Shown one piece after another: positions 43,673 through 56,648 of a DNA stretch of 64,000 bases. Position numbers and translations under genes: made by a program. Where the stretch lies: NCBI RefSeq assembly GCF_009861505.1, contig NZ_WTFT01000004.1, positions 204,822 to 268,821 of the forward strand. Direction: 5' to 3'. The notes under the pieces were generated by a model. It worked only from the letters and a program-made list of their open reading frames with translations, had not been told where the DNA came from and searched no databases. Origin of the DNA: Pseudomonas izuensis (GTDB taxonomy: Bacteria > Pseudomonadota > Gammaproteobacteria > Pseudomonadales > Pseudomonadaceae). The stretch's first letter is position 1. Every line of letters begins with the position of its first letter.

Positions 43673-44476
43673 CTAGCGGTTGTAGTGCTTTTTGCCCCAG
43701 GCCAGCAAGCCTTGCAGCAGTTCCTTCAATACCACTTGGGTAGGCTCCGCCAGATCCGCCCGATAGCGGAACGGCTCGAACTCTTCCATGTAGGTGCACT
43801 GGCCCAGTTCCAGTTGCACCGCATGAATGTTTTGCGCCGGGTTGCCGTAATGACGGGTGATGTGCCCGCCCTTGAAGCGCCCGTTCAGCACATGGCTGTA
43901 TTCCGGGTGGCCAGCGCATATCGCCTCCAACTGCGAAGCCAGCTGCGGATCGCAACTGGCACCGTTGAAGGTGCCGAGGTTGAAGTCCGGCAGTTTGCCG
44001 TCGAACAGGTGCGGAATCAGCGAACGAATCGAATGCGCGTCGAACAGCAGCGCATAGCCGAACTCGGCCTTGAGTCGTGCCAGTTCCTGCTGCAGGGTGC
44101 TGTGATACGGCGTCCAGATCTGCTCCAGATACGTCGCGCGCTCTTCTTTCGAAGGCTCCAGCCCTTCGCGGAACAACGGCACGCCGTCGAACAGCGTCGC
44201 CGGGTACAGGCCGGTGGTGGCGCCCACGTACAAAGGCTTGTCGTCGGACGGACGGTTCAAGTCAATGACGAACCGCGAATACTCGGCGGCCAGGGTGCTG
44301 GCTCCCAGCTCGGCGGCGAAGTCGTAAAGCTGCGGGATGTGCCAATCGGTATCCGGCAGGCTCTTCGCCTGGGGGATCAATCCGGCTTCGACCGCCGGGG
44401 TCAGGCGCACACCGGCGTGGGGCATGCTGATCAACAGCGGCACGCGGCCTTGTTTGAAGTTCAGAACCTTATCCAC
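43673..44476 (-). CDS. hutG: N-formylglutamate deformylase (HutG)
   Basis: 267 residues from GTG 44476 (DKVLNFKQGRVPLLIS) with GGAGAG six bases upstream. It hydrolyses N-formylglutamate to glutamate and formate, the last step of the five-step histidine pathway. The family pattern MPHAGVRLTP, DTDWHIPQLYDF, FVIDLNRP and DAHSIRS is complete. The frame is open far upstream, but that part overlaps hutI. Last gene of the long hut operon. Confidence 0.94.
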   Translation of the reverse strand: MDKVLNFKQGRVPLLISMPHAGVRLTPAVEAGLIPQAKSLPDTDWHIPQLYDFAAELGASTLAAEYSRFVIDLNRPSDDKPLYVGATTGLYPATLFDGVPLFREGLEPSKEERATYLEQIWTPYHSTLQQELARLKAEFGYALLFDAHSIRSLIPHLFDGKLPDFNLGTFNGASCDPQLASQLEAICAGHPEYSHVLNGRFKGGHITRHYGNPAQNIHAVQLELGQCTYMEEFEPFRYRADLAEPTQVVLKELLQGLLAWGKKHYNR

Positions 44477-44486
44477 AACTGCTCTC

Positions 44487-45692
44487 CTACAGGCTCGTTT
44501 CAACGCCGTGACGCACGACGCGTTTTTCCAGATCACCGCCCAGCCAGTACGACAGGTCGGCCGGACGATCGATTTGCCAGGCGACGAAATCCGCAACCTT
44601 GCCTGCCTCGATCGAACCGTGGGTGTCGGCCATGCCCAGTGCCGTAGCCGCATGAATCGTCGCGCCCGCCAGGGCTTCTTCCGGGGTCATGCGGAAACAG
44701 GTGCAGGCCATGTTCAGCATCAGGCGCAGCGACAGCCCCGGCGAGGTACCGGGATTGAGGTCGCTGGCGATGGCGATTTTCACGCCGTGCTTGCGCAGGG
44801 CTTCCATCGGCGGCAATTGGGTTTCACGCAGGAAATAAAAGGCGCCGGGCAGCAACACGGCGACGGTGCCGGACGCGGCCATGGCGATCGCGTCTTCTTC
44901 AGTCATGAATTCCAGATGATCAGCGGACAGGGCGTGGTAACGCGCCGCGAGGCTGGAACCGTGCAGGGACGACAACTGCTCGGCGTGCAGCTTCACCGGC
45001 AAGCCAAGTTTCTGTGCGGTGATAAACACTCGCTCGACTTGCGCCGGGGAAAACGCCAGGTACTCGCAGAAGGCATCCACCGCATCCACCAGCCCTTCAG
45101 CGGCCAGTGCCGGAAGCATTTCAGCGCAGATGTGATCGATGTAGTCGTCGGCGCGATCCTTGTATTCCGGCGGCAGGGCATGAGCGGCCAGGCAAGTGCT
45201 GCGCACGCTGATCGGCAGTTCGGCGCCGAGACGTCGGGCAACCCGCAGCATCTTGCGTTCGTTGGCCAGGTCGAGACCGTAGCCGGACTTGATTTCGATG
45301 CTGGTGACACCGTCACGCATCAGGCTTTTCAGACGTTTGGCGGCGCTGGCGAACAATTCGTCTTCGGTCGCGGAGCGGGTGGCGCGCACGGTACTGGCAA
45401 TGCCGCCGCCGCTGGCGGCGATTTCGGCGTAACTGACGCCTTGCAGGCGCTGCTCGAACTCACCGCTGCGGTTACCGCCAAACACGGTATGGGTGTGGCA
45501 GTCGATCAGGCCCGGTGTGACCCAGGCCCCGTTCAAATCATTGACCGCAGGGTATTCGCCGGACGGCAGTTCACTGCGCGGGCCGACCCACTCAATGTGC
45601 GCACCGGACGTCACGATGGCCGCATCCTCGATGACCGAGTAGACGCCTTGCACCATGGTTGCGACGTGACAGTGTTGCCAGAGCGTTTTCAT
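44487..45692 (-). CDS. hutI: Imidazolonepropionase (HutI)
   Basis: 401-residue amidohydrolase that opens imidazolone propionate to formiminoglutamate. Metal ligands are in [10 protein letters not shown] and in KLHAEQLSS and LSADHLEFM; the distal Asp is in [14 protein letters not shown]. Length is typical. It lies 17 bases downstream of hutT and 10 before hutG. Confidence 0.96.
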
Positions 45693-45709: not shown

Positions 45710-47119
45710 TTATCGATGAGAAAAAGAAGGTTCCTGCTCTACCAGCACCGCCTTGCCTGCCGCCGGTTTCACCCACGTCAGGTAGGCCAGCACCAGCAAT
45801 GCAATCCAGACCACGCCAACGATCAGAGCCGCCTGGGTGTCCGGGAAGTAACCCAGCACGCCGAAGATGAACAGCATGAAGGCAATCGCCGCCATCGGCG
45901 CATAGGGCCAGAACGGCACCGGGAATTTCAATTGCTTGACCTGCTCGGCGCTCATGGTGCGACGCATGGCCACCTGGGTCACCAGAATCATCAGCCAGAC
46001 CCACACCGTGGCGAAAGTCGCGATGGAGGCGATCAGCAAAAAGACGTTTTCCGGAATCAGGTAGTTGAGCAACACGCCCAGCAGCAGTGCACCGCTCATC
46101 ACCACGACAGTCAGCCACGGCACGCCGTTGCGCGACAAGCGGGCGAAGCCTTTGGGTGCATGTCCCTGCTGAGCCAGGCCATACATCATGCGGCCCGCGC
46201 CGAAGATGTCACTGTTGATGGCCGACACTGCCGCCGAGATCACCACGATATTGAGTATGGTCGCTGCCGAACTGATCCCCAGCTTGTCAAAAATCTGCAC
46301 GAACGGGCTGCCTTGGCTGCCGATCTGCTGCCACGGGAAGATCGACATCAGCACCAGCATCGTCAGCACATAGAACAACAGGATACGCAGCGGTACGGCG
46401 TTGATCGCCCGGGGCAACACGTGTTGCGGATCTTTGGCTTCACCGGCCGTAACGCCGATGATTTCAATACCGCCAAAGGCGAACATCACCACCGCAAACG
46501 AAGCGATCAGGCCGCCCACGCCATTGGGCATGAAACCGCCCTGGGACCAGAGGTTGCTGATATCGGTTGCCTGGGCGCCGGGGGCGGTGCTGATACCAAA
46601 CCACATGATGCCGAAGCCGCCCAGAATCATCGCCACGATGGCCCCGACCTTGAGCAGCGACAACCAGAACTCCATTTCACCGAAGACCTTGACGTTGCAC
46701 AGGTTCAAGCCACCCACCACGGAAACGATGCCCAGCACCCAGATCCAGCGGGAGACCTCCGGAAACCAGAAGCCCATGTAAATGCCGAACGCGGTCACAT
46801 CGGCCATACCGACGATGACCATTTCAAACGCATAGGTCCAGCCGAGGATAAAGCCTGCCATCGGGCCCAGATAAGTGCTGGCGTACTGGCCGAATGAGCC
46901 GGCCACCGGGTTATGCACAGCCATCTCGCCGAGGGCGCGCATGACCATGAACACCGCTGCACCGCCAATCAGGTAAGCGAGCAGGACCGCAGGACCGGCC
47001 ATTTGAATGGCCGAGGCAGAACCGTAAAACAGCCCGGTGCCGATCGCCGACCCCAGTGCCATGAAGCGAATATGTCGGGCAGAGAGCCCGCGTTTGAGCC
47101 CTTTTGTTTGCGCTTGCAT
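45710..47119 (-). CDS. hutT: Histidine permease (APC family)
   Basis: 469-residue amino acid transporter with about 12 membrane helices. The N-terminal [20 protein letters not shown] is the amino-acid-permease signature of the AAT subfamily. Located between hutH2 and hutI, it corresponds to the high-affinity histidine transporter of P. fluorescens (HutTh). Substrate assignment rests on context. Confidence 0.9.
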
Positions 47120-47238: not shown

Positions 47239-48771
47239 TTACAGGCTAGGCAACAACTTCGCCGCAACCAGCTCGTTCAGGCAACGCGAGGCCAACAACT
47301 CGCTCGCCGCGTTGATGTCCGGTGCAAAGAAACGGTCTTTCTCATAGAAAGGCACTTCGTTACGCAGGATCGCCCGAGCCTTTTCCAGCTTCGGCGAGGT
47401 CTTCAGACCGTCACGCAGATCCAGGCCCTGGGCCGCCGCCAGCCATTCCACCGCGAGAATGCCACGGGTGTTCTCGGCCATTTCCCACAGACGCTTGCCG
47501 GCAGCCGGAGCCATGGACACGTGGTCTTCCTGGTTGGCGGAAGTCGGCAGGCTGTCCACCGAATGCGGATGGGACAGCGCCTTGTTTTCGCTGGCCAGAG
47601 CGGCCGCGGTCACCTGGGCGATCATGAAACCGGAGTTCACGCCACCGTTGGCCACTAGGAACGGCGGCAGCTGCGACATGTGCTTGTCCATCATCAGCGA
47701 GATGCGACGCTCGCTCAGGGAGCCGATTTCAGCGATGGCCAGCGCCATGTTGTCAGCCGCCATGGCCACTGGTTCGGCGTGGAAGTTACCGCCGGAAATC
47801 ACGTCGCCTTCAGCCGCGAATACCAACGGGTTGTCGGAAACGGCGTTGGCTTCGATGGCCAACACTTCGGCAGCCTGGCGGAACTGGGTCAGGCAGGCAC
47901 CCATGACTTGCGGCTGGCAGCGCAGCGAGTACGGATCCTGGACCTTTTCGCAGTTCTCGTGGGAGTCGGAGACTTCACTGCGCTCACCCAGCAGATCGCG
48001 GTAAGCGGCGGCGGCGTCGATCTGGCCTTTTTGGCCACGAGCAGCGTGGATACGGGCGTCGAACGGCGAGCGCGAGCCCAGCACGGCTTCAACGGTCAGG
48101 CCACCCAGGGCCAGGGCGCCGGCGAACAGGTCTTCACCTTCGAACAGACCGCGCAGGGCGAATGCGGTAGACACCTGTGTGCCGTTGAGCAGCGCCAGGC
48201 CTTCTTTCGCAGCCAGGGTCAAGGGTTTCAGGCCAGCGACTTTCAGCGCTTCGGTGGCTTCCATCCACTCGCCTTTGTAGCGGGCCTTGCCTTCGCCCAG
48301 CAGCACCAGCGACATGTGCGCCAAAGGCGCCAGGTCACCGGAAGCACCCACCGAGCCTTTCAGTGGAATGTGCGGGTAAACCTCGGCATTGATCAGGGCG
48401 ATCAGCGCGTCGATCACCACGCGGCGAATACCGGAGAACCCACGGCTCAGGCTGTTGACCTTGAGCACCATGATCAACCGCACCAGCTCGTCGCTGATCG
48501 GCTGGCCGACACCGGCGGCGTGGGACAGCACCAGCGAGCGCTGCAGGTTTTCCAGGTCTTCGCTGGCGATACGGGTCGAGGCCAGCAGGCCGAAACCGGT
48601 GTTGATGCCGTAGGCAGTGCGGTTTTCGACGAGAATCTGTTCTACGCACGCGACGCTGGCTTCGATCTGGGCCGAGGCACTGTGGTCGAGGGTCAGTTTC
48701 ACCGGCTGCTGATAGACATCACGCAGTTGGGCAAGGGTCAGTTGGCCGGGAATCAGGTTAAGCGCAGTCAT
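47239..48771 (-). CDS. hutH: Histidine ammonia-lyase (functional histidase, HutH2)
   Basis: 510 residues. It converts histidine to urocanate with the autocatalytic MIO group, formed from Ala143-Ser144-Gly145 in [14 protein letters not shown]. Other active-site residues are in place: Tyr54, His84, Asn196, Tyr281, Arg284, Phe330 and Glu in SANQEDH (P. putida numbering plus one). It is the enzyme expected to carry the flux; the neighbour at 48891 lacks MIO. Confidence 0.96.
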
Positions 48772-48890: not shown

Positions 48891-50414
48891 TCAGTTCAGA
48901 TTCGGTAAGGTTTTTTGCAGCAAGGCCGGGTCTTTCAAAACGCCCGCGGCCGCGGCGATGTCCGGTGCCAGCCAGCGATCCTGATCGTAGGCCGGTACAC
49001 GTTCACGCAGCAGACGCCAGGCGGCATCGGTGCCGGCGCCGAAGCGCTGCTCTTTCAAGAATTCAAACGCCTGGGCCGCCAACAGGTACTCGATGGCGAG
49101 GATCTGCGTGCAGTTTTCCAGCGCGCGATGCAGCTTCAACGCGGCGTTGGTGCCCATGCTCAGGTGGTCTTCCTGCAGACCCGAGGTGACGTAGTTATCG
49201 AGCACCGCCGGTTGCGCCAACTGGCGGTTTTCCGCACACAGCGAAGCGGCGACGTATTGCACGATCATCATCCCGGAGTTCACCCCGGGGTTGGCCACCA
49301 GGAACGCCGGCAGACCGCTGACGTGCGGGTTGATCAAACGGTCCAGGCGTCGTTCGGCGATGGAGCCGATTTCCGCCATGGCGATGGCCAGCAGGTCCGC
49401 CGCCAGTGCTACCGACTGACCATGGGGATTGGCCTGGGACATGACGCGGAAATTGTCCGGCGTGCCCAGCAACAGCGGGTTGTCGGTGCAGCCATTGAGT
49501 TCGGTTTCGATCTGTTTGATCGCATGATCGAGTTGATCGCGAGCCGCGCCGTGCACCTGGGGAATCGAACGGATGCTCAGCGCATCCTGAGTACGAATGC
49601 CTTTGCTCTGCGCGATCACTTCACTGCCATCGAGCAGCGCCCGCAGATTGATCCCGACCTGTTGCATGCCCGGATGCGGCTTGAGCGCAATGATCTCGGC
49701 GTCGAACGCAGCGATCTGGCCACGCTGGGCCTCGAAGCTCATGGCGCTGATCACGTCGGCCCATTGCAGCAGGCGCGTGGCATCGGCAATCGCCAGGCAG
49801 CTGAGGCCGGACATGCACGGCGTACCGTTGACCAGGCACAGACCGTCCTTGGCGCCGAGTTGAACCGGTTGCAGGCCTTCTTCGGCCAATGCCTGTTGTG
49901 CCGAGACGATCTGCCCCCGATAGCTGACATTGCCGACACCCAGCAGCGCGATACCGATGTGGGCCATGTGGGTCAGGTAACCGACCGAACCCTGGGACGG
50001 CACTTGCGGGGTGATGCCACGGTTAAGCAGCGCCAGCAAGGCTTCGACCACTTGGCGATGAATGCCGGATTTGCCATGGCTGTAATTGCGGATCGCGGCG
50101 CACATGATTGCGCGGGTCTGTTCATCGGCCAACACCGGGCCGACGCCGCAGGCATGACTGAGCAGGGTATTGCGCGACAGTTGGCTGAGTTGTTCGTCTT
50201 TGAGCGAGACGTTGGACAAACCGCCCAGGCCGGTGTTGACGCCATAGGCGCGTTCGCCACTGATGACGATGCGCTGGACGATCGCCTGGGCATTTTCGAT
50301 GCGTGCCCAGGTCTGCGCCGACAGCTCCAGCTGTGCGCCATGGCGGGCGACCGCAACCACATCCTGCCAACGCAACGGGGCATCGGCGATAACGATTTTT
50401 TCAGCCTGGGACAT
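48891..50414 (-). CDS. hutH1: HutH1, histidase paralogue without the MIO triad
   Basis: 507 residues from the ATG at 50414 (GAGG seven bases upstream). The aromatic-amino-acid-lyase fold is clear over the whole length. Aligned by eye with HutH2, [14 protein letters not shown] becomes GSVGYLTHMAH: the Ala-Ser-Gly that forms MIO is exactly deleted. The catalytic Tyr281 is Leu279 and Phe330 is Pro330, while Tyr57, Asn196, Arg282 and Glu415 remain. The frame is intact and the length normal. It is therefore probably not a histidase but a conserved pseudoenzyme or an enzyme of other chemistry. It lies between hutV and hutH2. Confidence 0.9.
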   Translation of the reverse strand: MSQAEKIVIADAPLRWQDVVAVARHGAQLELSAQTWARIENAQAIVQRIVISGERAYGVNTGLGGLSNVSLKDEQLSQLSRNTLLSHACGVGPVLADEQTRAIMCAAIRNYSHGKSGIHRQVVEALLALLNRGITPQVPSQGSVGYLTHMAHIGIALLGVGNVSYRGQIVSAQQALAEEGLQPVQLGAKDGLCLVNGTPCMSGLSCLAIADATRLLQWADVISAMSFEAQRGQIAAFDAEIIALKPHPGMQQVGINLRALLDGSEVIAQSKGIRTQDALSIRSIPQVHGAARDQLDHAIKQIETELNGCTDNPLLLGTPDNFRVMSQANPHGQSVALAADLLAIAMAEIGSIAERRLDRLINPHVSGLPAFLVANPGVNSGMMIVQYVAASLCAENRQLAQPAVLDNYVTSGLQEDHLSMGTNAALKLHRALENCTQILAIEYLLAAQAFEFLKEQRFGAGTDAAWRLLRERVPAYDQDRWLAPDIAAAAGVLKDPALLQKTLPNLN

Positions 50415-50550: not shown

Positions 50551-51381
50551 TTAAACCACCGCCGCCCGCCGCTGCACAAAGCGGTCGACGTACTCATCCG
50601 CCGGCGAGTGCAGGATCTCTTTCGGCGTGCCGACCTGGATCAGGCGGCCATCCTTGAGGATCGCGATGCGGTTGCCGATGCGCACGGCCTCGTCGAGGTC
50701 GTGGGTGATGAAGACGATGGTCTTGTGCAGGGTCTTTTGCAGCTCCAGCAACTGGTCCTGCATCTCGGCGCGGATCAGCGGGTCGAGGGCACTGAACGCT
50801 TCGTCCATCAGGATGATGTCGGTGTCCGCCGCCAGGGCGCGAGCCAGGCCCACACGTTGGCGCATGCCGCCGGAGAGCTGGTGCGGGTATTTGTTTTCGT
50901 AACCCTTGAGGCCCACGGTGTTGATCCAGTGCAGCGCACGCTCGGTGCACATCTGCTTGCTCTCGCCGCGCACCTTCAAGCCGTAGGCGACGTTATCCAC
51001 CACGGTCTTGTGGGGCAGCAGGCCGAAGCTCTGGAACACCATGCTGATCTTGCGCCGACGAAATTCGCGCAGGGCTTCCATGTCGTATTGCAGGATGTCC
51101 ACGCCGTCCACCAGGATCGCGCCGCTGGTCGGATCGATCAGGCGGTTGAAGTGACGCACCAGGGTCGATTTGCCGGAACCCGACAGGCCCATGATCACGA
51201 AGATCTCACCGCTGCCGATGCTCAGCGACAGGTCGTTCACGCCGACCACGCAGCCGGTTTCGGCCAGTACCTGGTCCTTGGTCTTTTTCTGGCGAATCAT
51301 TTCCAGCGCGTCTTTGGAACGGCTGCCGAAAATCTTGAAGACGTTTTTGACTTCGATTTTGCTGATGGCTTGGTTGCTCAT
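50551..51381 (-). CDS. hutV: HutV, ABC transporter ATPase (betaine/proline class)
   Basis: 276 residues. Walker A is GLSGSGKST, the signature LSGGMRQRVGLARA and Walker B IILMDEAFSALDP. It is of the ProV/OpuAA class but stops after the nucleotide-binding domain, with no C-terminal CBS pair. With HutX and HutW it makes an importer reported to handle histidine in pseudomonads and rhizobia. It overlaps hutW by four bases. Confidence 0.94.
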   Translation of the reverse strand: MSNQAISKIEVKNVFKIFGSRSKDALEMIRQKKTKDQVLAETGCVVGVNDLSLSIGSGEIFVIMGLSGSGKSTLVRHFNRLIDPTSGAILVDGVDILQYDMEALREFRRRKISMVFQSFGLLPHKTVVDNVAYGLKVRGESKQMCTERALHWINTVGLKGYENKYPHQLSGGMRQRVGLARALAADTDIILMDEAFSALDPLIRAEMQDQLLELQKTLHKTIVFITHDLDEAVRIGNRIAILKDGRLIQVGTPKEILHSPADEYVDRFVQRRAAVV

Positions 51382-52229
51382 TTGCTCACCTCATGCCGTG
51401 CGCGACCGTACGCTTGTGTAATGCGGTCGATCACCACTGCCAGAATCACGATCGCCAGACCGGCTTCCAGGCCGCGTCCGACGTTGAGGGTCTGAATCCC
51501 CACCAACACGTCTTCACCCAGGCCACGGGCACCGATCATCGAGGCAATCACTACCATCGACAGGGCCATCATGGTGGTCTGGTTGATCCCGGCCATGATG
51601 CTCGGCAGGGCCAGCGGCAGTTGTACGCCGAACAGTTGCTGCCAGCGGTTGGCACCGAAGGCGTTGATCGCTTCCATCACCTCGCCGTCAACCTGGCGAA
51701 TGCCCAGATCGGTCAGGCGGATCAGCGGTGGCGCGGCGTAGATCACGGTGGCGAAAATCGCCGGGACCTTGCCCAGGCCGAACAGCATCAGCACCGGAAT
51801 CAGGTACACGAAACTCGGCATGGTCTGCATGATGTCCAGCAGCGGCATCAGCACAGAACGCAAGCGATTGCTGCGCGCCGAAAGAATGCCCAGCGGAATG
51901 CCGATCAGCACCGAGATGACTGTCGCGACCATCATCAGCGCCAGGGTCTGCATCAGCTTGTCCCAGAGGCCGACCGCACCCACCAGGAACAGCAAACCGA
52001 CGATGACCGCCGTAGTCACCACTTTACGTGTCGCGTGCCAGGCCACACCGGCCACGATGGCCAGCATCAGCCACCAGGGCGCCGCGCGCAGCAGCCCTTC
52101 AAGATTGACGATGGCCCACAACAGGGTATCGGAGATGTGCCGGAACACGTCGCCGTAGTTGGTGACCAGCGAATCGACCCAACTGTTGACCCAGTCGGCG
52201 ATGGAAAAGGTAAAGCTTTCGGGAAACAT
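51378..52229 (-). CDS. hutW: HutW, ABC transporter permease
   Basis: 283 residues with about six membrane helices and the ProW-type signature (GIPLGILSARS, then EAINAFGANRWQQLFGVQLPLALPSIMAG as the ATPase-contact loop). It forms the membrane channel of the HutXWV importer. It overlaps hutV by four bases. 70 bases with a strong hairpin separate it from hutX. Confidence 0.94.
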   Translation of the reverse strand: MFPESFTFSIADWVNSWVDSLVTNYGDVFRHISDTLLWAIVNLEGLLRAAPWWLMLAIVAGVAWHATRKVVTTAVIVGLLFLVGAVGLWDKLMQTLALMMVATVISVLIGIPLGILSARSNRLRSVLMPLLDIMQTMPSFVYLIPVLMLFGLGKVPAIFATVIYAAPPLIRLTDLGIRQVDGEVMEAINAFGANRWQQLFGVQLPLALPSIMAGINQTTMMALSMVVIASMIGARGLGEDVLVGIQTLNVGRGLEAGLAIVILAVVIDRITQAYGRARHEVSK

Positions 52230-53337: not shown

Positions 53338-54807
53338 TCAGGCCTGCGCCGCAGCGCGACCGACACTTAGCTTTTGTTCGGTGACCACGTCCTGCTCGAC
53401 CGGCAGGATCAGTTGATCGGGCACTGTGCCGTGCCATTTTTTCGCACACACGTAATACAACGCTGCAGGAATCACCAGACCGATGATCCAGGAAATATCC
53501 ACATCACCCAGAGCGGCCACCAGCGGACCGGTATAGAACTTGGTGGAAATGAACGGCAGCTGCACCAGCACACCGAACACATAGACGCTGATGCCGAGGA
53601 TGTTCCAGCGGCCGTAGCGACCGTTCGGATCGGCCAGCGCCGGCACGTCATAACGCTCGCGAGTGATGCAGTAGTAGTCCACCAGGTTGATCGCGCTCCA
53701 TGGCGTAAAGAACGCCAGCAGGAACAGGATGAAGGACTTGAACGCACCGAGGAACGAGTGCTGACCGAGCAAAGCCATCAGGGTCGCAGCACCGACGATG
53801 ACCAGCACGAAGACCAGACGCTGCAAGCGCGTGACCTTCAGTTCACCACGGAAACCGCTGATGATGGTCGCAATGCACATAAAGCTGCCGTAGGAGTTCA
53901 GCGTGGAGATGGTGACCTTGCCGAACGCGATGCTGAAGTACAGCAGCGCAGCGGTGGCACCGGTACCGCCCAGACCCACGATGTAGGCCACTTCGTGACC
54001 GGCGAATTGCCCGTTGGCCGAAGCGGCGGCAAACACGCCGAGGATCATCGCCACCTGGGCGCCAATGACCGAACCTGCGCCTGCGGCGAAAAAGGTTTTC
54101 ACCGAGGACGTCTTGCTCGGCAGGTAACGCGAATAGTCAGCCACATAAGGGCCGAAGGCGATCTGCCAGGATGCCGCGAGCGACACCGCGAGCAGGAAGC
54201 TGCTCCAGCTGAAGTGGCGGATTTGCAGGAGTGCGCCAACGTCAACTTGGCTCATCAGACGGCTGAACAGATAAACAAAGGCAATCACGCCAATGAGACT
54301 GGCAACACGGCCGATCCAATGGATCACCCGATAACCAAGCACCGTGACCAGCACGATGACACTGGCGAAAAGGAGGATGCCGACGGTGTCGCTGACGCCA
54401 AACAACTGGCCCAGCGCCTGGCCGGACAGCACGGTACCCGTTGCGGTGAAGCCCAGGTACATCAGGCAGACCAGCACGATCGGGATGGCCGCGCCATAGA
54501 CGCCGAACTGGACCCGGCTGGAGATCATCTGCGGCAGGCCGAGCTTGGGCCCTTGCGCGGCATGCAGCGCCATGACGCCGCCGCCGAGCAGTTGACCGAT
54601 CAACAGGCCGATCAACGACCAGAACACGTCACCGCCCAGCACCACGGCCAGGGCCCCGGTGACAATCGCGGTGATTTGCAGGTTGGCACCCATCCACAGG
54701 GTGAACTGGCTAAACAGACGACCGTGTCTTTCCGCTTCCGGGATGTAGTCGATCGAGCGTTTCTCGATCAACGGTTTGTTGCCTGCACGCTCGCTGTCAG
54801 CAGCCAT
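53338..54807 (-). CDS. NCS1-family permease, likely urocanate transporter HutTu
   Basis: 489 residues with about 12 membrane helices and the NCS1 (cytosine/purine permease) pattern: FTLWMGANLQITAIVTGALAVVLGG, FGVYGAAIPIV and FGPYVADYSRYLP. General annotation would call it CodB-like. Its place directly after hutU matches the P. fluorescens gene reported as the urocanate transporter. Substrate assignment is from context. Confidence 0.85.
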   Translation of the reverse strand: MAADSERAGNKPLIEKRSIDYIPEAERHGRLFSQFTLWMGANLQITAIVTGALAVVLGGDVFWSLIGLLIGQLLGGGVMALHAAQGPKLGLPQMISSRVQFGVYGAAIPIVLVCLMYLGFTATGTVLSGQALGQLFGVSDTVGILLFASVIVLVTVLGYRVIHWIGRVASLIGVIAFVYLFSRLMSQVDVGALLQIRHFSWSSFLLAVSLAASWQIAFGPYVADYSRYLPSKTSSVKTFFAAGAGSVIGAQVAMILGVFAAASANGQFAGHEVAYIVGLGGTGATAALLYFSIAFGKVTISTLNSYGSFMCIATIISGFRGELKVTRLQRLVFVLVIVGAATLMALLGQHSFLGAFKSFILFLLAFFTPWSAINLVDYYCITRERYDVPALADPNGRYGRWNILGISVYVFGVLVQLPFISTKFYTGPLVAALGDVDISWIIGLVIPAALYYVCAKKWHGTVPDQLILPVEQDVVTEQKLSVGRAAAQA

Positions 54808-54965: not shown

Positions 54966-56648
54966 TTATTTGCCGGTAATCATCGGCAGGTTCAGCCCTT
55001 GTTCCTTGGCGCAGTCGATCGCGATCTGGTAACCCGCATCGGCGTGACGCATAACGCCGGTTGCCGGGTCGTTGTGCAGCACGCGAGCGATACGCTCAGC
55101 CGCTTCGTCAGTACCGTCGCAGACAATCACCATGCCCGAGTGCTGGGAGAAGCCCATGCCGACGCCGCCGCCGTGGTGCAGGGAGACCCAGGTCGCGCCG
55201 CTCGCGGTGTTGAGCAGGGCGTTGAGTAGTGGCCAGTCGGACACGGCATCGGAACCGTCCTGCATCGATTCGGTTTCGCGGTTCGGGCTCGATACCGAAC
55301 CGGAGTCCAGGTGGTCGCGACCGATCACGATAGGTGCAGACAGCTCGCCGCTACGGACCATTTCGTTGAACGCCAGGCCCAGCTTGGCGCGCAGACCCAG
55401 GCCAACCCAGCAGATACGTGCCGGCAGACCCTGGAAGCTGATGCGCTCGCGCGCCATGTCCAGCCAGTTGTGCAGGTGAGCGTCGTCCGGGATCAGTTCC
55501 TTGACCTTGGCGTCGGTCTTGTAGATGTCTTCGGCGTTGCCCGACAGTGCAGCCCAACGGAACGGGCCGATGCCACGGCAGAACAGTGGACGGATATAAG
55601 CAGGTACGAAGCCCGGGAAGTCGAATGCGTTTTCCACGCCTTCTTCTTGCGCCATCTGACGGATGTTGTTGCCGTAGTCGAAGGTCGGTACGCCCATTTT
55701 CTGGAAGTCCAACATCGCTTTAACGTGCACGGCCATCGATTGCTTAGCGGCCTTGATCACAGCGGCAGGTTCGGTCTTGGCGCGAGCGCGGTATTGGTCC
55801 CAGGTCCAGCCAGCAGGCAGGTAGCCGTTGAGCGGGTCGTGGGCGCTGGTCTGATCGGTAACCATGTCCGGGCGTACGCCGCGCTTGACCAGTTCCGGCA
55901 GAATTTCAGCCGCGTTGCCCAGCAGCGCGATGGAGATCGCTTTGCCTTCTTTGGTGTACTTGGCGATGCGAGCCAGAGCGTCGTCGAGGTCTTTGGCTTG
56001 CTCATCGACATAGCGGCTTTTCAGGCGGAAATCGATGCTGACCTGCTGGCATTCGATGTTCAGCGAGCAAGCGCCGGCCAGGGTTGCAGCCAGAGGCTGG
56101 GCGCCACCCATGCCGCCCAGGCCAGCGGTCAGTACCCACTTGCCTTTCAGGTCATCGTTGTAGTGTTGGCGACCGGCTTCGACGAAGGTTTCGTAGGTAC
56201 CCTGAACGATGCCCTGGCTGCCGATGTAGATCCAGCTGCCGGCGGTCATCTGGCCGTACATGGCCAGGCCTTTGGCGTCGAGTTCGTTGAAGTGTTCCCA
56301 GCTTGCCCAGTGTGGCACCAGGTTGGAGTTGGCGATCAGCACGCGCGGGGCGTTGGCGTGGGTCTTGAACACGCCGACCGGCTTGCCGGATTGCACCAGC
56401 AGGGTCTCGTCGTCGTTCAGGTTGGTCAGGCTTTCAACGATCTTGTCGTAGCATTCCCAGTTACGTGCCGCACGACCGATACCACCGTAAACCACCAGCT
56501 CCTTTGGGTTCTCGGCGACTTCAGGGTCGAGGTTGTTCATCAGCATGCGCAGCGGCGCTTCGGTCAGCCAGCTCTTGGCGGTCAGCTTGTTACCGCGGGC
56601 AGCACGGATTTCAACGTCACGAAACTTAGTAGGTTTATTGTCAGTCAC
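54966..56648 (-). CDS. hutU: Urocanate hydratase (HutU)
   Basis: 560-residue NAD-dependent urocanase, converting urocanate to imidazolone propionate. The tight NAD site includes [17 protein letters not shown]. The active-site Cys is in [13 protein letters not shown]. The C-terminal [19 protein letters not shown] is conserved. First gene of the long hut operon, behind the sigma-54/HutC control region at 56779-56972. Confidence 0.97.

Follow-up and report, generated by a model that had tools for sequence, protein, structure and literature searches.

The gene hutH1, on the minus strand of a 64,000-nucleotide stretch of Pseudomonas izuensis (assembly GCF_009861505.1, contig NZ_WTFT01000004.1, positions 204,822 to 268,821; hereafter the window), encodes a histidase homologue that lacks the precursor of the 4-methylideneimidazole-5-one (MIO) cofactor and is, on balance, probably an MIO-independent trimethylammonia-lyase that would convert histidine betaine (hercynine) to urocanate for the urocanase HutU. 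Its intact 507-residue translation carries the loop GSVGYLTHMAH, whereas the adjacent histidase HutH2 reads GSVGASGD at the matching site. The Ala-Ser-Gly triad from which MIO is made is thus missing from HutH1 and present in HutH2, as the initial annotation of these letters had claimed and as translation of both genes confirms. The substitutions that it had named, Tyr281 of HutH2 to Leu279 and Phe330 to Pro330, were recovered in the alignment. It had further described a three-residue deletion removing Ala-Ser-Gly; the loop is indeed three residues shorter than that of HutH2, but Tyr146 stands opposite HutH2 Ala143, so that, as judged from the alignment, the change can equally be called a replacement. 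The features concerned are the following.

48891..50414, minus strand: hutH1, MIO-less histidase homologue of 507 residues, the subject gene, scoring over the NCBIfam HutH cut-off
49974..49991 (read 49991-49974), minus strand: codons G142-S143-V144-G145-Y146-L147, the shortened cofactor loop of HutH1, from the sequence
49578..49580, minus strand: Leu279 codon of HutH1, at the HutH2 Tyr281 site, from the class comparison
49254..49256, minus strand: Tyr387 codon of HutH1, from the class comparison
49170..49172, minus strand: Glu415 codon of HutH1, from the class comparison
47239..48771, minus strand: hutH2, ordinary MIO histidase (GSVGASGD), from translation and family search

HutH1 exceeds both relevant NCBIfam cut-offs (TIGR01225, 542.1 bits against 539.15; NF006871, 554.5 bits against 524), and of the features of a HutH equivalog it has the full-length score and the remaining catalytic residues but lacks the triad, Tyr281 and Phe330. 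Equivalents of the HutH2 catalytic set Tyr54, His84, Asn196, Gln278, Arg284 and Glu415 are all retained. Further relatives were gathered from genomes and plasmids, and the strict non-redundant alignment held 155 proteins with the HutH1-type loop (hereafter GYL proteins), 137 MIO histidases, four MIO proteins resembling phenylalanine ammonia-lyase (PAL-like), ten ergothionase-like proteins (xxD type) and the ergothionase chain 6s7j; before the strict recount it contained 157 GYL and 162 MIO rows, some of them repeated, and the counts given here use 155 and 141. Tyr57, His87, Gln276, Arg282, Gln414 and Glu415 (HutH1 numbering) were found in 155 of 155 distinct GYL proteins and Asn196 in 153; the P. 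putida counterparts of these residues are known to be catalytic. Position 387 is Tyr in every GYL protein (155/155), Lys in 6s7j and nine of the ten ergothionase-like proteins, and Val in 136 of the 137 MIO histidases. The Tyr281 site is occupied by Leu in 148 of 155 GYL proteins, all ten xxD proteins and 6s7j, and in none of the 141 MIO proteins, and Glu415 is Glu in all aligned histidases, GYL and ergothionase-like proteins and Gln in all four PAL-like ones. Among 38 GYL representatives of less than 85% identity, the class is marked by Ala102, Tyr146, Asp220, His288, Arg359 and Tyr387 (37 or 38 of 38 each), Tyr146 marking it by construction.

An orthologue of HutH1 (at least 57% identity) was found in 104 of the 149 Pseudomonas genomes searched, about two thirds; loops were read in 50 of these 104 genomes and in 80 named relatives, and the other genomes were scored by similarity. 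The GY loop was present in all 156 fetched full-length proteins scoring at least 560 bits to HutH1 (repeats included, from many independent assemblies), and of 163 MIO-type proteins none had a higher score against HutH1 than against HutH2. Because the loop motif was what defined the alignment classes, the loop residue is uniform within each of them by construction; this comparison of score with loop (156 + 163 rows) is the independent test. The initial annotation had held that hutH1 is intact and kept by selection, and had proposed aligning pseudomonad HutH1 sequences and estimating the ratio of nonsynonymous to synonymous substitution rates (dN/dS). The deletion proved to be conserved across the clade, the 507-residue frame is intact, and the median dN/dS (NG86) was 0.071 for HutH1 (81 sequences, 3240 pairs) and 0.039 for HutH2 (73 sequences, 2627 pairs), with pairs kept at dS 0.1-1.2 (3240/3240 and 2627/2628, respectively). 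Because the class residues are conserved and dN/dS is low, these sequence comparisons place HutH1 under purifying selection and strong constraint, with an active-site signature of its own and not decaying, which upholds the earlier view. A sequencing error at about 49970-49995, which had been named as a possible refutation, is excluded because the GY loop occurs in all 156 high-scoring rows from many assemblies, and the orthologues, the dN/dS and these same rows also rule out a pseudogene. The HutH1-type family also occurs in other Gammaproteobacteria, Rhizobium and relatives, Priestia, and on Klebsiella plasmids. On one Klebsiella pneumoniae plasmid, an MIO-less relative with the loop GSVGYLIATAH (L167, 8983-10512) lies with an OsmV/OpuBB/OpuCC-type importer, urocanase and imidazolonepropionase; this gene was matched at >=95% by 203 of 72,556 plasmid records (Klebsiella 191, Raoultella 10, Escherichia 2), 163 of which cover most of it.

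The gene stands in a minus-strand operon of the order hutU, hutTu, hutX, hutW, hutV, hutH1, hutH2, hutTh, hutI, hutG, whose other members are listed here.

54966..56648, minus strand: hutU, urocanase, proposed user of the HutH1 product; named by eye, with homologues found at relatives' loci
53338..54807, minus strand: hutTu, cytosine/purine-family permease (Pfam PF02133), a urocanate transporter by analogy with strain SBW25 (an excerpt of PMC8871633)
52300..53337, minus strand: hutX, substrate-binding protein (Pfam OpuAC, glycine betaine); start probably 53274
51378..52229, minus strand: hutW, ATP-binding cassette (ABC) permease; best NCBIfam matches are choline and glycine-betaine permeases, under their cut-offs
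50551..51381, minus strand: hutV, ABC ATPase; NCBIfam ProV (betaine/proline/choline family), 370.7 bits against a cut-off of 326.6
45710..47119, minus strand: hutTh, amino-acid permease, from the Pfam search
44487..45692, minus strand: hutI, imidazolonepropionase; named by eye, with homologues found at relatives' loci
43673..44653, minus strand: hutG, N-formylglutamate deformylase; named by eye, with homologues found at relatives' loci, the open reading frame start being probably too far upstream

A third, PAL-like MIO protein is encoded in the same genome outside the window (G000:C34:164897-166294, locus L003).

HutXWV has the features of a betaine-class importer: its binding protein is of the OpuAC family with Trp residues like those of ProX, and its ATPase is of the ProV family. 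The Trp residues of HutX in AEEW, AGWTCE and FYYW pair in the HMMER alignment with three Trp of E. coli ProX, which form its betaine cage, and all three were present in 95 of 95 HutX rows above 500 bits (93 distinct) and in five of five lower-scoring rows. HutX (at least 73% identity) is encoded no more than 6 kb from HutH1 in 95 of the 104 genomes that have HutH1 and is present in one of the 45 that lack it, the 149 Pseudomonas genomes being related and not independent. When at least 5 kb of upstream sequence was needed for counting (64 GYL and 48 MIO genes left out), a binding-protein and permease/ATPase set was found upstream of 104 of 122 GYL genes (73/73 in close Pseudomonas relatives), permease/ATPase genes only upstream of 3 and none upstream of 15, five of which (L125, L127, L191, L192 and L193) have importer genes downstream or just across. 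An upstream importer set was seen at none of 20 unlinked HutH2 control loci from HutH1-bearing genomes (L207-L226). Among 114 MIO genes, 80 had the importer set upstream, all of them with HutH1 upstream too, 31 without HutH1 upstream had no importer set, and three (L114, L116 and L197) had HutH1 but no full set. The importer is of ProU type in Pseudomonas, of OpuB/C type on the Klebsiella plasmids (L167) and of polar-amino-acid type in Erwinia and Rhizobium (L162-L164); the persistence of an importer through these changes of type suggests that the HutH1-type enzyme has an imported substrate of its own. In one Pseudomonas genome (G043; L198, 8517-11224), hutXWV adjoins a hutC-like gene, and no HutH1 match at E 0.001 was found.

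Genes as expected around methylated amines adjoin several relatives; gene-by-gene annotation covered a minority of the loci, so these neighbours are cases, not a rate. In two clusters (L117 in G107 and L118 in G044), relatives of 48-50% identity are accompanied by a Rieske oxygenase resembling GbcA (582-586 bits against a cut-off of 670), a reductase of ferredoxin type that is only weakly like GbcB, an enolase-superfamily protein and an Ldh2-family dehydrogenase, a combination suggestive of a quaternary-amine pathway. Formaldehyde is a by-product of oxidative N-demethylation, and a relative of 37% identity (L190 in G209) adjoins a glutathione-dependent formaldehyde dehydrogenase (710.6 against 543.95 bits), with a Rieske-type protein (recognized by eye and by a weak match of 104 bits) and a reductase within a few kb. 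A member of the N-methyltryptophan-oxidase family, over its cut-off, adjoins the gene or its importer in L163, L119 and L181, and in L125 urocanase lies directly downstream of the GYL gene.

On the basis of these data, HutXWV would import a quaternary-ammonium derivative of histidine, most likely hercynine (N-alpha-trimethylhistidine), from which HutH1 would take the beta proton and expel trimethylamine to yield urocanate, to be degraded by HutU, HutI and HutG. Ammonia is a poor leaving group that MIO activates in histidase, while trimethylammonium would already be a good one, so that the MIO electrophile could be dispensed with. Tyr146 may replace MIO, and the change of Tyr281 to Leu would make room for the bulky trimethyl group; the imidazole, held by Glu415, would acidify the beta proton, after which trimethylammonium would leave readily. 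Tyr57 may accept the proton, which is the role of the equivalent Tyr in histidine ammonia-lyase (HAL). Tyr387 would occupy the site of the ergothionase Lys, which, at a guess, may serve the thioimidazole. The retention of Glu415, which is Gln in the four PAL-like proteins, argues for an imidazole substrate, and the lack of Lys at position 387 together with an ordinary HutU argues for sulfur-free hercynine over ergothioneine. Catalysis, substrate and product, like the functions given to Tyr146, Tyr387 and Leu279, are thus predictions from sequence; hercynine would be the simplest fitting substrate, and other quaternary or N-alkylated histidines are possible. Loss of the triad residue Ser143 costs more than 1000-fold in histidase, as reported in an excerpt of PMC3903478, and ergothionase, which is MIO-less, eliminates trimethylamine from ergothioneine (an excerpt of PMC13405746, citing Maurer 2019), a precedent indicating that trimethylamine-releasing lyase chemistry needs no MIO.

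Several observations weigh against hercynine lysis by HutH1. The dN/dS of HutH1 is nearly double that of HutH2; Tyr281 is kept in seven of the 155 GYL proteins, one group of 36-37% identity, and Phe330 is likewise kept in seven of 155. The AlphaFold model of HutH1, built from a shallow alignment, had a mean predicted local distance difference test score (pLDDT) of 47.8, too poor for use. In the maximum-likelihood tree (52 of 360 sequences after thinning), 6s7j and nine xxD rows formed one clade (100/100) and HutH1 of the window fell not there but in a separate clade of 23 GYL rows (100/100), a possible common origin of all 28 GYL rows having a support of 69/88 and appearing in 63% of bootstrap trees; at position 387 it has Tyr and not the ergothionase Lys. 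The importer set is upstream of 31 of 49 GYL genes outside the close Pseudomonas relatives, not of all, and amino-acid-type permease/ATPase genes lie within 5 kb on the other side in two of the 20 HutH2 controls (L223 and L226). The demethylation genes belong to the relatives and not to the Pseudomonas operon. A betaine-family importer does not have to carry a betaine, since HutXWV of SBW25 is reported, in an excerpt of PMC8871633, to contribute to histidine uptake. Finally, no paper among the open-access matches listed assigns a hercynine lyase reaction to HutH1.

It is unlikely, but deserves weight, that HutH1 is an MIO-independent lyase acting on a histidine derivative other than hercynine that already bears a good leaving group, such as a different N- or ring-modified betaine; urocanate or an analogue of it would still go to HutU. 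The same active-site and linkage data would fit such a substrate, and three relatives have N-methyl-amino-acid oxidase genes next to them, a hint that several states of N-methylation are dealt with. Against it, a fully quaternary amine is indicated by the Trp residues common to HutX and ProX and by the GbcA-like neighbours.

The initial annotation had offered, as one of several functions, a pseudoenzyme that joins or regulates the HutH2 tetramer. Such a dead subunit, or a sensor of histidine or urocanate, appears improbable, even though the triad and two active-site residues are lost and 83 of the 114 MIO loci examined have HutH1 upstream of the MIO gene. Apart from the triad, Tyr281 and Phe330, the catalytic residues examined have not decayed but are invariant or almost so, and linkage to HutH2 is not constant; HutH1 follows the transporter instead. 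Two genomes, G045 and G057 (L128 and L129), carry hutXWV-hutH1 next to a LysR-type gene in an 18-kb stretch that showed no further hut gene, and their hut operon with HutH2 is elsewhere (L215 and L207). In L124, L126, L182, L194, L195 and L196, HutU, HutI and HutG are clustered with the GYL gene and no further HutH was found there, the MIO HutH lying elsewhere in the genome. Among 36 genomes chosen for a HutH1 locus without nearby HutH2 or for a low homologue count, and so giving no population rate, the MIO HutH was on another contig or more than 200 kb away in 22 and within about 10 kb in 12; of the remaining two, G080 has two pieces of it at a distance of 268 kb, and G452 yielded none. The hut operon of G452 (L178) comprises hutC, hutF, hutU, hutH1, hutI and hutG, with hutH1 as its only ordinary HutH-type member. 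That genome has two further homologues at E 1e-40, one of them an xxD protein encoded 2.4 kb from hutH1 and the other PAL-like. This pattern of separation fits a urocanate producer better than a helper of HutH2. The annotation's remark that only one of the two SBW25 hutH genes is needed on histidine agrees with print, where hutH1 is the dispensable one (an excerpt of PMC8871633). Of the functions it had offered, catalysis of another reaction is the one now favoured, and hercynine lysis would be that reaction.

More remote is a reaction other than elimination (racemisation or isomerisation of a histidine-like substrate, or its binding), in which the class-specific Tyr146 and Tyr387 could form a racemase-like acid/base pair; the superfamily is known for elimination or aminomutation, and the gene often accompanies urocanase, which needs an alkene product. 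The most remote is a strict ergothionase converting ergothioneine to thiourocanate and trimethylamine, which the missing MIO, the Leu at the Tyr281 site, the retained Glu415 and the match to 6s7j (228.6 bits, found from HutH1 by sequence) would suit, but which was rejected because the loop gap is of three residues and not one, Tyr387 is not Lys and the clade is separate and fully supported. Also against it, no sulfate exporter or YeiH gene was seen in the annotated GYL stretches L162-L167, though an arylsulfatase lies about 6 kb away in L164.

Neither a hercynine lyase nor an MIO-free HutH1 is described among the open-access matches listed, subscription papers being mostly outside the search, and 'hercynine' and 'urocanate' occurred together there only in an antibiotic metabolomics study, as judged by its title. 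PA5093 of P. aeruginosa, probably a histidase-like gene, bears in an excerpt of PMC12772324 the label 'hutG', which may need checking. We regard as evenly balanced the wider proposal that hercynine catabolism is widespread and unrecognised, carried out by a GSxGY/Tyr387 family of MIO-free trimethylammonia-lyases that is labelled 'histidase' in 104 of the 149 Pseudomonas genomes searched and in other taxa. If this is true, bacteria use methylated histidine as a carbon and nitrogen source and release trimethylamine, so that they may both supply trimethylamine and act as a hercynine sink. It would also explain why many pseudomonads have two hutH genes, one of them unneeded for histidine in SBW25, and would correct the HutH annotation that HutH1 receives by passing a curated cut-off. 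MIO was perhaps lost twice, in the HutH1 line and in the ergothionase line, as trimethylamine took the place of ammonia as leaving group, and HutH1 would then be the second case in the MIO superfamily of the cofactor being dropped as the leaving group changes. Hercynine exists as a laboratory standard (an excerpt of PMC13405746).

Four known systems can be set beside HutH1 and its importer. GbcA, the glycine betaine monooxygenase, is resembled by the oxygenases that cluster with the 48-50%-identity relatives, but it performs oxidative N-demethylation and not elimination, and no such gene was seen in the hut operon of the window. The ProU- and choline-type importers (ProVWX and ChoXWV) share with HutXWV the OpuAC family of HutX, the ProV family of HutV and the three Trp of ProX; Sinorhizobium HutXVW can be placed with them. 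HutXWV differs from them in being encoded with a histidine-pathway lyase and in its reported part in histidine uptake. The histidase HutH (P. putida HAL, EC 4.3.1.3) resembles HutH1 in length, in the equivalents of its catalytic residues and in its place in the hut operon, with about 39% identity between HutH1 and HutH2; HutH1 differs in the absent triad, in the changes Tyr281 to Leu, Phe330 to Pro and Val387 to Tyr, in having an importer of its own and in being unneeded for histidine growth in SBW25. Some features of the ergothionase side were noted in their own right. The MIO-less type GS[IL]GAAD adjoins OpuAC-type betaine importers in L170, L178 and L202, and near xxD genes an annotated putative sulfate exporter (L170 and L228) or a YeiH-family gene (L229) was seen, which suggests sulfur-containing substrates such as ergothioneine. 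A GSVGQAD protein is encoded on Sinorhizobium meliloti pSymA (L171, 9001-10524; L227, 8001-9524) and recurs on S. meliloti symbiotic plasmids, the best solved-structure match of the L171 copy being ergothionase (298.7 bits). Ergothionase itself (Treponema denticola, PDB 6s7j/6s7q; Burkholderia) shares with HutH1 the character of an MIO-less histidase homologue with Leu at the Tyr281 site and Glu415 kept. Its loop (GEGD in 6s7j) is one residue shorter than that of HAL, whereas the GY loop of HutH1 is three shorter; it has Lys at 387 and Ser at 196 where HutH1 has Tyr and Asn, and its product is thiourocanate, whereas urocanate is proposed for HutH1.

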